Assembly: GCA_903944135.1 (NCBI GenBank)
Contig: CAJAQL010000022.1
Coordinates: 1 to 38,916, forward strand
Origin: an uncultured Parcubacteria group bacterium
GTDB lineage: Bacteria > Patescibacteriota > Minisyncoccia > UBA6257 > 2-01-FULL-56-20
Direction of reading: 5' to 3'
Length of the DNA: 38,916 nucleotides
Below the pieces are notes generated by a model. That model was given only the letters and a program-made list of their open reading frames with translations, had not been told where the DNA came from and did not search any database. This document shows positions 5,981 to 10,230 of the stretch, in pieces. Position numbers and translations under genes: made by a program. How positions within the stretch are numbered: the stretch's first letter is position 1; each line of letters opens with the position of its first letter.

Positions 5981-6008
5981 TTGACAATGTTCTTTGTCCG
6001 TCTATAAT
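5981..6008 (+). promoter_or_regulatory. consensus sigma70-type promoter TTGACA-16-TATAAT upstream of the 23S locus
   Basis: TTGACA 5981-5986, TATAAT 6003-6008. Confidence 0.8.
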
Positions 6009-6392: not shown

Positions 6393-6960
6393 ATTTCCGC
6401 CGCAAGGCGGAACTCAATAAGGGCGAATGGTGGATGCCTTGACTAGAAAAGGCGATGAAGGACGTGGCGTAGCGACGATACGCCTCGGGGAGGTGCGTAG
6501 CAACCTGTGATCCGAGGATTTCCGAATGGGGTAACCTAATGAAGTAAACCTTCATTGCTCGGCGTAAGCCGAGAGCGCACCCGGTGAAGCAAAACATTTC
6601 AGTAACCGGAGGAACAAAGAATAAATAATTATTCCCTGAGTATCGGCGAGAGAAACGGGAACAGCCCAAACTAAGGTTCTGATTTATCAGGACGTTAGCG
6701 TTATAAGGGAGGAACGCTGCTTTGCTTATCGCAAAGCGCAGAGCACTTCGGTGCTTCGCGTTTCGCGATTCGCGAGGAAAGGAGGAGTAAAAAAATCGTT
6801 AGTTAGCCAAAGCCGTCTGGAAAGCGGCGCCAGAGCGGGTGATAGCCCCCTAGGCGAAAACTTACGATCTCCTTAGTTTTTCTACTTGAGTACTTCGAGG
6901 TCAAACAGTCTTGAAGGAATTTGGCAGTACTATCTGCTAAGGCTAAATACTTTTCTAGAT

Positions 6961-6997
<37 letters not shown>

Positions 6998-7743
6998 CAG
7001 GCCGGTGAGGCCGATGAAATAGAATCTGAAACCATTTGTCTACAAGGAATTGAACCTCGAACGGCTACGGAGCAATCCGCGGACGAGAGGAACAATGTGC
7101 CTATTGAAGAATGAGCCAACGACTTATTTTGTGTTGCTTGTCTAAGCGCGTATAGCGCAGAGGCATAGGGAAACCGAGTCTTAATAGGGCGAATACGGCA
7201 GCATGAGATAGACCCGAAGCCAGATGAGCTTGCCTTGGCCAGGTTGAAGTTCCGCGAAAGCGGAATGGAGGACCGAACTGGTGGGTTGTTCAACACCCTC
7301 GGATGAGCTGAGGTAAGGAGTGAAAAGCTAATCGAATCTGGTAATAGCTGGTTCTCTCCGAAATAGTTTTAGGACTAGCGGTATGGTAAACCAATGGGGG
7401 TAGAGCACTGGATGATTCGTAAAGACCGAAAGGCCGACGCATCAATCAAACTCCGAATACCATTGAGAGATCCCATACTAGTCAGACTGCGGGGGCTAAG
7501 CTCCGTGGTCGCGAGGGGAAGAGCCCAGATCATCATCTAAGGTCCCTAAATTTACGCTCAGTGTAAAAGGTAGTTTTCTGCCATAGACAGATAGTAGGTT
7601 GGCTTAGAGGTAGCCATCCTTTAAAGAGTGTGTAACAACTCACTATTCGATGGCAGGAAGCGCCGAAAATGTACCGGGGCTAAAGCGTAATACCGAAGAT
7701 ATGGGTGCGTGGACTTCACAGAGGAAAATCCTCAAAAGTGTGT

Positions 7744-7870
7744 GGGGCTGTAGCTCAGTTGGGAGAGCGCTCAACTTCTGCTTTAGGTTTTTGTTTAGAT
7801 CGTTCCGGAACGATTGAAACAGAAGCTTCGAAGTTGGGAGTCAGCGGTTCGATCCCGTTCAGCTCCACCA
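7744..7870 (+). tRNA. tRNA-Ala-like element embedded in the 23S IVS, with enlarged anticodon arm
   Basis: Acceptor GGGGCTG/CAGCTCC with G3:U70, A73, encoded CCA; D arm GCTC-AGTTGGGA-GAGC; T arm AGCGG-TTCGATC-CCGTT; anticodon stem CTCAA/TTGGG extended to 9 bp (CTCAACTTC/GAAGTTGGG) and capped by an extra hairpin. Confidence 0.8.
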
Positions 7871-7888
7871 CATATTTGTTCTTTTCAT

Positions 7889-7916
7889 GGTGAACCTTCT
7901 TTTCTGAAGGTTCACC
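7889..7916 (+). other. 11-bp hairpin within the IVS, 3' of the tRNA-like element
   Basis: GGTGAACCTTC-TTTTCT-GAAGGTTCACC. Confidence 0.85.
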
Positions 7917-9340
7917 TCTTCTGTGAAGTCCATGCGCGGTAGGAGAGCATTCCGGCCTGCAGTGAAGGCGTACCCGTGAGGGATGCTGGAGCGGCCGGAA
8001 GAGAAAATGTTGGCATGAGTAACCACAATCCCAATGAGAAATTGGAACCCCGAAAATCCAAGGTTTCCGTGGCACTGGCAATCAACCACGGGTTAGGCGG
8101 CCCTAAGCCCATGCCGAAAGGCGCAAGCGATGGATAGCTGGTTAATACTCCAGCCCACCTACTGTGTTATCCCTCTTGTGCGAATGAGATAAGTAAACGT
8201 GCCTTATTGGTTTGGCATTGTTTGTGCGAAGTTCAAGCGAGCACCGACAGAAGGTCAGGAATTTACCTGGTCGACGTTTATGAAGTGCATTCCAAGAAAA
8301 GCATGAGGGTCACGCACGGCAGGTTCCGTACCGTAAACCGACACTGGTGGATAGGGCGAGAAGCCCAAGGGGAACGAGTGAATCATCGTTAAGGAACTCG
8401 GCAAAAAAGCGGCCGTACGTTAGCTATATGGCCTGATCCTCGCAAGAGGATCCGCAGCGAAAGTCTCCCTAGCAACTGTTTACCAAAAACACAGCTCCCT
8501 GCTAACTCGCAAGAGGATGTATAGGGGGTGACGCCTGACCGATGCGAGAAGGTCAAGACCGGGTGTGGTGCCGCAAGGCATTGCTCACTGGTTCAAGCCC
8601 TCGTCAATGTCAGCGATAACTATAATCGTTCTAAGGTAGCGCAATTCCTTTTCGGGTAAGTTCCGAAGCGCACGAAAGGCGTAATGACTGGGGAACTGTC
8701 TCAACGATGTGCTCGGTGAAAATGCGATTCCAGTGAAGACGCTGGATACCTGTAACGGGACGAAAAGACCCCGGAAGCTTTACTGCAGCTTGGTATTGAT
8801 TTTAAGGTTTTTCTGCGTAGCGTAGTGGTGAGGATTTGAAGCGTTGCTTTTGGGTAACGTGGATCCGACAATGAAACAGCCATCTTTAAAACTTTAACGT
8901 CTAACCGGTTGGGAGTCCGAAAGGTAAACCCAACTGAGACAGTGCTTGGTGGGCAGTTTAAATGGGGCATTTTCCTCCTAAAGAGTAATGGAGGAGTTTA
9001 TTAAGGTCAGCTTAGCCCGGATGGAAATCGGGCAGGACGTGCAAACGCAAAAGCTGGCTTGACTGCAAGACCTACAAGTCACGCAGGCACGAAAGTGGAA
9101 GTTAGTGACCCGACGACTATATTAAGTATTTCTTTATTGATGTACTAATTCTTTATAGAAAGGTCGGAGACACCGGACAAAAGCTACTCCGGGGATAACA
9201 GGCTAGTGAAGTCCGAGCGTCCCTAGCGACGACTTCGCTCGGCACCTCGATGTCGGCTCGCCGTAGCGCGGGGGTGGAGAAGCTCCCAAGCGTTTGGCTG
9301 TTCGCCAATTAAAACGGCACGTGAGCTGGGTTCAGACCGT

Positions 9341-9681
9341 CAACGAAGATAACCCATTCGAGGCAAGATTTGTTTTTAGAAACGAAATCTACTGTTAAAA
9401 AGAAACGGCGGCCTCCAACAGCAATGTTGGAGTGAAAAAATCGACTCATATCGGTGAAGCCCTCATAGAATCTGACCTGGTTCTAGAGGAGAATACCGAG
9501 GGAAGTCGCACCTGGAAGAAATTTCATGTGTTGACCCCCTAGAGACTTGATCCTTCGGGATCGGATGGACGGAACGTCCATAACACGTCGATCATCCATT
9601 GATGGCTCGAGATTTATCTTGGGCTTGTCGAAGGATGGTGGTATAGTCCAAAGCGTCAGTAATGACGAGAATTGAAAATTG
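9341..9681 (+). other. group I-like intron in 23S rRNA (~341 nt, no ORF), E. coli ~2593 insertion site
   Basis: Interrupts GAGCTGGGTTCAGACCGT^CGTGAGACAGG; 5' exon ends in T, intron ends in G; GATCC-TTCG-GGATC hairpin, CTCCAACA-GCAA-TGTTGGAG hairpin, ...AGACTTGATCC and GGTATAGTCC near the 3' end resemble P7/P8 and S elements. Confidence 0.82.
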
Positions 9682-9842
9682 CGTGAGACAGGTTGGTCTC
9701 TATCTGTTACAGGCGTAGTGCGAGCGAAAGCTCGCCAAATACTTGAGGGGAGTTGGCCTTAGTACGAGAGGACTGGGCTGAACATACCTCTGGTTTACCG
9801 GCTTTGGTACCAACTGAATTGCCGGGTAGCTATGTATGGAAG

Positions 9843-9876
<34 letters not shown>

Positions 9877-10230
9877 ACCCCAAGATTAGGTATGCGTGAT
9901 TTCGTGGAAGACTACCACGTTGATAGGCTCTAAGTGTAAGGCTCGCAAGGGCTTCAGCTGAGGAGTACTAATAATCCGCCAACCATCCCAATGCTGACTT
10001 CGAAAGAAAGGCGAACTGTTGCAAAAACAGTAAGCCACAACTCTACAACCCCACGTCGCTCCTAGGGAGCTATGCGGGGCAAACAAATATCAAAAAACAA
10101 GAGATCTTTATCTTTCGTTCCCGCGTAGGCGGGAACCCAGAGTGGATCTCAAAACGGTTTTTTGATGTCTGATCGTACCGTTCTGTCATTCCGTGAAAAA
10201 TCGGAATTCAGAAAACAGAAAGAATTTTTA

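Follow-up and report, generated by a model that had tools for sequence, protein, structure and literature searches.

Introduction

Helix 45 of the 23S rRNA is a known site of IVSs processed by RNase III (PMC2801512, PMC4990558). Helix-45 IVSs of the Coxiella, Campylobacter and Salmonella type are excised by RNase III without ligation. They have a terminal inverted stem, occur patchily and carry no intron signature. A 2024 survey of rRNA insertions in CPR bacteria (PMC11270868) classed inserts as introns, homing endonuclease ORFs or uncharacterised, and described short non-intron inserts at the IVS sites 23IS2 and 23IS4 as probable IVSs; the word ‘tRNA’ is absent from its main text. tRNA genes part one LSU rRNA in the split mitochondrial genes of Tetrahymena and oyster. 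In the Tetrahymena mitochondrial LSU rRNA, a tRNA gene lies between the two parts (Heinonen et al. 1987, as cited in PMC2996981). Bacterial 16S–23S spacers hold tRNAs within the rRNA transcript, together with a boxA-like motif and flanking complementary stems.

Here we describe a tRNA-bearing insert (T-IVS) in helix 45 of a 23S rRNA gene from an uncultured Parcubacteria group bacterium (assembly GCA_903944135.1, contig CAJAQL010000022.1), thus from the same bacterial group as the surveyed CPR insertions. The analysed stretch of 38,916 nucleotides is referred to as the window. The insert shares the helix, the terminal inverted stem, the patchy occurrence and the lack of an intron signature with ordinary helix-45 IVSs, but its frame and cargo differ, and no tRNAs were described in the papers found on such IVSs. 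It resembles split mitochondrial LSU genes in that tRNA genes part one LSU rRNA. In those, however, the pieces are rearranged or widely separated, with no conserved helix-45 closing frame as far as the cited accounts describe them. Unlike 16S–23S spacers, it is sited inside the 23S rRNA gene, and no 16S was found upstream. The nearest precedents are ordinary helix-45 IVSs and split mitochondrial LSU genes. No report was found of a 23S rRNA from bacteria that contains a tRNA, as in an earlier note on this DNA that knew of no precedent; since the literature search left most subscription journals and preprints uncovered, novelty is provisional. rRNA genes are among the most constrained genes, yet these minimal bacteria apparently carry one to five tRNA-like genes within the 23S rRNA.

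The host 23S rRNA gene and its insert

The 23S rRNA gene of the window was full length, with a 5S rRNA next downstream in Rfam searches (features in Table 1). It was the sole 23S copy detected in the window's genome (G000), where a query with the flanks matched this contig only. The LSU match ran unbroken through the insert, and the Rfam alignment opened a large insertion in the helix-45 loop exactly at the tRNA-like element, so the placement of this element at helix 45 between continuous 23S flanks, as read in the earlier note, held. The whole insert (7715–7927) extends beyond the element described in the earlier note and takes in a local hairpin, a helix between tRNA leader and trailer, the motif GTTCTTT and a hairpin on the 3' side. 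Like a helix-45 IVS, it was missing from related 23S genes and ended in a stem long enough to suit RNase III, with 19 continuous pairs in G000. The predicted folding energy of the 230-nt helix-45 region was −107.9 kcal/mol, 9.4 standard deviations below shuffles (z −9.4).

Other classes of insert were considered. A group I intron was without Rfam support, no group I or II intron core being matched in the window or in the stretch 7600–8000. A tmRNA or permuted tmRNA was rejected at 14.7 bits against an Rfam cut-off of 47. An rRNA operon spacer (ITS) with a linked 16S was rejected as well, because the element is inside the 23S rRNA gene and inspection of up to 1.5 kb of upstream sequence revealed no 16S 3' end for any frame-bearing 23S rRNA gene examined. 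Further downstream in two frame-bearing 23S rRNA genes, group I introns were observed (L043 in G085, 1446–1902; L109, 5728–5977). A consensus-like promoter, TTGACA-16-TATAAT, was located at window positions 5981–6008, approximately 400 bases upstream of the 23S rRNA gene.

Table 1. Features of the 23S rRNA gene and its helix-45 insert, in window coordinates.
Feature	Position	Strand	Basis or remark
23S rRNA gene	6406..9982	+	Rfam RF02541, 2162.5 bits, model 1–2925, one continuous match
Helix 45, 5' strand GCGTGGAC	7707..7714	+	Pairs with 7928–7935, 8/8 pairs, covarying across 21 genomes
Closing stem, 5' arm TTCACAGAGGA	7715..7725	+	Pairs with 7917–7927; 11/11 pairs in 21 genomes, compensatory double changes
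Local hairpin GAGGA-AAA-TCCTC	7721..7733	+	Competes with closing stem for GAGGA
tRNA leader AAGTGTG	7737..7743	+	Can pair with trailer 7871–7877; ACCA bulged; duplex −4.5 kcal/mol
tRNA-Ala-like element, G3:U70, encoded ACCA, expanded anticodon arm	7744..7870	+	Rfam tRNA, 47.8 bits, and sequence parse
Expanded anticodon arm	7770..7838	+	59 nt instead of 7-nt loop; long hairpin; no usable anticodon
tRNA trailer CATATTT	7871..7877	+	Can pair with 7737–7743
GTTCTTT motif, putative boxA-like antitermination sequence	7878..7884	+	boxA identity inferred
Frame 3' hairpin GGTGAACCTTC-TTTTCT-GAAGGTTCACC	7889..7916	+	Counterpart in 21/21 frames; several pairs doubly changed
Closing stem, 3' arm TCTTCTGTGAA	7917..7927	+	Partner of 7715–7725
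Helix 45, 3' strand GTCCATGC	7928..7935	+	Partner of 7707–7714

The tRNA-Ala-like element was well above the cut-off of 29 bits for the Rfam tRNA model (RF00005, E 2.5e-7, span 7744–7867). Its acceptor stem was fully paired (7/7), the D stem had GG in its loop, and the TTCGATC of the T arm, the encoded CCA and the G3:U70 pair were all in place, as first noted. The further claim that all arms were intact failed at the anticodon arm. There, CTCAA (to 7774) and TTGGG (from 7834) were 59 nt apart in place of the usual 7 nt, and the 52 extra bases left neither a 5-bp stem with a 7-nt loop nor a readable anticodon. The stretch formed a long hairpin in the computed fold, and ARAGORN called no tRNA in the window. 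Three ordinary tRNA-Ala genes (UGC, GGC and CGC) were found elsewhere in G000 when further copies were sought, so the embedded element is not needed for decoding.

Distribution and covariation of the insertion frame

A search for the helix-45 region in the window's order gave matches in 166 of 246 genomes. Some of the inserts were plain long hairpins that resemble ordinary IVSs of the RNase III type, and the others shared a frame. In this frame, TTCAnnGAGGA ... TCYTCnnTGAA extends helix 45, and a hairpin GGCGA..TCGCC lies directly 5' of the 3' arm. The frame of the window was found in 20 further Patescibacteria of several families (21 genomes in all), a recurrence that excludes chance and assembly error. 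An assembly chimera or a 23S pseudogene could be suspected because the genomes are metagenome assemblies. As the 21 genomes with the frame come from different samples and were each assembled independently, and as the 23S is full length, this explanation is next to negligible, and the chimera that the earlier note had named as a way to overturn its reading is contradicted.

A class-wide search added the frames L183, L185 and L186; its fourth match, L184, was rejected as a plain long hairpin. The 3'-side pattern was also scanned against 85,462 GTDB genomes and returned 17 records, all from Patescibacteria or Parcubacteria-like bins, with Kaiserbacteria, Jorgensenbacteria, Wolfebacteria and Paceibacter among them. 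A few were titled only ‘bacterium’, and most of those few correspond to genomes placed in the window's order by whole-genome search. Seven relatives from the same family had a short helix 45 without insert (G013, G017, G006, G033, G034, G012 and G005; loci L035, L037, L039, L040, L041, L049 and L051). The insert was patchy even within one genus, being present in G036 and missing from G006, G033 and G034.

The 5' arm paired with the 3' arm at 11/11 positions in 21/21 genomes; it was absent from the search pattern, but was picked among regular-expression matches for best pairing. In the frame alignment of the 21 genomes, 98.7% of cells were paired, and both sides had changed in 17 of the 25 pairs, which provided the compensatory changes that had been proposed as a check. 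Covariation was 0.508, compared with 0.214 ± 0.015 in shuffles and at most 0.105 in slid versions. The anatomy and recurrence of the insert are secure; its mechanism is not.

tRNA-like elements within the frame

Most of the 21 frames held one to five different tRNA-like elements, which differed from genome to genome. A canonical T arm was required of every element counted, by which low-scoring spurious elements from the automatic parser were set aside. On this basis there were 21 elements in 14 genomes, and 14 of these, in 8 genomes, were above the Rfam cut-off. Among others, two elements each were present in G029, G030 (Arg-TCG and Thr-GGT) and L113, five in G002 and one each in G036, G082 and G149. 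Only degenerate tRNA remnants, read by eye, were left in L098, L099, L100, L103, L111 and L183, and L185 was a bare frame with no tRNA. These remnants and the bare frame show that the frame can do without a tRNA. In L100 (JADHUY010000014.1) and L106 (Kaiserbacteria, JACQBN010000028.1), the tRNA-bearing inserts also contained a short ORF preceded by a Shine-Dalgarno-like sequence; the predicted peptides (64 and 23 aa, respectively) were hydrophobic and had no Pfam match.

The cargo also differed between G000 and G001, the single congener of the window's genome that was compared. From the shared ACCA and GTTCTTT context we infer that the G001 element is orthologous to that of the window. It kept GGGGC and G3:U70, and two acceptor-stem pairs had co-changed (6–67 from U-A to G-C, 7–66 from G-C to A-U). 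Compensatory change in the element's own arms, sought after the earlier note, was thus seen in the acceptor stem, whereas the D loop was GAAA, having lost its GG, and the TTC of the T loop was lost too.

The earlier note had proposed a tRNA-like domain that could be charged with alanine, either while part of the large subunit or after release from it. Minihelices with G3:U70 are known substrates of AlaRS, and the retention of this pair in G000 and its probable G001 counterpart, with the compensatory changes beside it, agrees with such a domain. The signal is, however, carried by two sequences only, and non-alanine types fill the same frame in other genomes. Alanylation is therefore not a common theme of these inserts, and we regard this explanation as very improbable.

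Decoding capacity

A canonical anticodon arm, i.e. a 5-bp stem and a 7-nt loop with U33, was present in 8/21 embedded elements, classified by eye from parser output, compared with 134/134 host tRNAs, which were called by ARAGORN and scored on a 3-nt anticodon only (p 7e-14). The anticodon arms of the embedded tRNAs were mostly expanded, shortened or lost, while the acceptor stem and T arm persisted. The anticodons assigned by ARAGORN to embedded elements included AAT, AGG and CTA as well as two- and four-base ‘anticodons’, and annotation pipelines will tally some of these elements as decoding tRNAs.

The insert might alternatively act as an internal spacer of the operon, supplying functional tRNAs in parallel with the rRNA. 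This would suit the boxA-like motif, which recalls rRNA spacers, and the three ordinary-looking tRNA genes among the embedded elements, namely Arg-TCG and Thr-GGT in G030 and Lys-CTT in L113, which were canonical and scored 58–73 bits. Functional tRNA supply is nevertheless unlikely, as 13/21 elements, that of the window included, have no canonical anticodon arm and isoacceptors were encoded elsewhere where checked. Another gene existed for Arg-TCG and Thr-GGT of G030 and for Ile-GAT and Pro-GGG of G002; sole-copy supply in these two genomes was rejected on a nearly complete tRNA listing. Where checked, the embedded tRNAs were supernumerary, and most were unable to decode.

Three further observations concern tRNA genes with unusual anticodons or positions. 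An embedded tRNA of G002 (L058, 382–457, minus strand) had a canonical arm with the anticodon CTA and would read UAG. At L168 (G030:C21:5550-5800), ARAGORN called a tRNA with the anticodon TTA, which would read UAA. The contig of G030 that carries the 23S also held tandem Pro-CGG, Arg-GCG and Arg-TCT genes, oriented opposite to the 23S (L163, G030:C25:1900-2300), each with a second gene elsewhere in that genome.

Origin of the tRNA-like elements

Outside the anticodon arm, the halves of the window's element were approximately 92% identical to the tRNA-Ala of the jumbo phage Tunturiibacter phage Tunturi_5, which has a normal anticodon arm in contrast to the expanded one of the window. The element was not close to the tRNA-Ala genes of G000. 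Since tRNA-Ala is a conserved molecule, the match shows a foreign type and not a phage donor. When the anticodon arm was swapped for a short stand-in, a plasmid search with the element returned many ordinary tRNAs at 84–88% identity, a result that says nothing about its source. Phages were rejected as the source of the five tRNAs arrayed in G002, as they gave only generic single-tRNA matches of 75–83%; weak matches to this array were found in Priestia plasmids. Duplication of the hosts' own tRNAs was rejected too, because the embedded elements were no closer to host genes than to unrelated tRNAs. We interpret the helix-45 IVS as acquiring tRNA genes of probably foreign origin and retaining them for their fold, not for decoding. 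The earlier suggestion of a captured spacer tRNA-Ala survives as to capture from elsewhere; a spacer source gained no support, no 16S 3' end having been found in the upstream sequence examined.

Processing or retention of the insert

We hypothesize that the insert is a helix-45 IVS with tRNA cargo that is excised, leaving a fragmented 23S rRNA, and that the tRNA domains are processing modules; we give this preferred explanation about an even chance. A conserved frame, made up of the 11-bp stem prolonging helix 45 and the 3' hairpin, houses one to five captured tRNA genes. The insert would most likely be transcribed within the pre-23S rRNA and then removed by nucleases: RNase III would cut the long closing stem, and RNase P together with 3' tRNA nucleases would cut at either end of the tRNAs. 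Ribosomes would go on to function with a 23S rRNA broken at helix 45, and the tRNA-like domains would have their role in folding and processing, not as adaptors. What favours excision with fragmentation is the location in helix 45, the length of the closing stem and the maintenance of acceptor and T arms without decoding.

The insert may instead be a retained expansion segment in a helix that tolerates insertions. The tRNAs, captured by chance and drift, would then have no role in processing, and the mature large subunit would keep the folded insert. The cargo does turn over and decay fast (G000 versus G001, the remnants in L098, L099, L103 and L111, the bare L185), as would fit this reading, and leader:trailer helices could stack the tRNA into the frame. 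A structured rRNA insert has been visualised in the ribosome for the 5S rRNA of Halococcus (PMC7530397). Against retention, the frame is conserved far beyond its contents, with strong covariation, and the GTTCTTT motif and the local TCCTC recur well above chance, which passive tolerance does not predict. Retention is accordingly a possibility that we doubt.

A more elaborate form of the excision hypothesis is ‘tRNA punctuation’, which we put forward tentatively. Foreign or phage tRNA-like domains would direct excision by RNase P and RNase III to give a two-piece 23S rRNA, the frame would be a landing site for swapping cargo, the local and the distal TCCTC would form a co-transcriptional switch and the boxA would be internal. 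If the insert is excised, RNase P would become a candidate for an enzyme that fragments rRNA, which would link bacterial IVSs with the mitochondrial LSU rRNA pieces that tRNAs separate; if it is retained, ribosomes display tRNA-shaped domains. Either way, this family captures the acquisition and decay of tRNAs under way.

Small motifs and processing factors

The GTTCTTT motif, which we take to be a good match to the boxA core, was present in 11/21 inserts (shuffles: mean 0.4, maximum 3), and a local TCCTC directly followed GAGGA in 7/20 tRNA-bearing or remnant frames (shuffles: mean 0.4, maximum 3), although both motifs were picked out only after viewing the data, which makes them look more significant against shuffles than they are. 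L185 was left out of the TCCTC count since its copy is the 3' arm itself. The local TCCTC can form a hairpin with GAGGA that would need to unfold for the distal stem to close.

An encoded CCA was weakly enriched among embedded elements (12/21, host 44/134, p 0.05), and their leader:trailer helices were somewhat stronger than those of host tRNAs (median −4.3 versus −2.2 kcal/mol, p 0.08). Such helices could hinder RNase P, and the two trends neither establish nor exclude its cleavage. The RNase P protein was detected in 4/7 genomes tested, and not in G000, G001 and G030. The RNase P RNA of G000 matched the type A model RF00010 at 85.3 bits, below the cut-off of 100 (E 7e-27), and RF00011 weakly. 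Genes for RNase III and NusB were found in all seven genomes tested.
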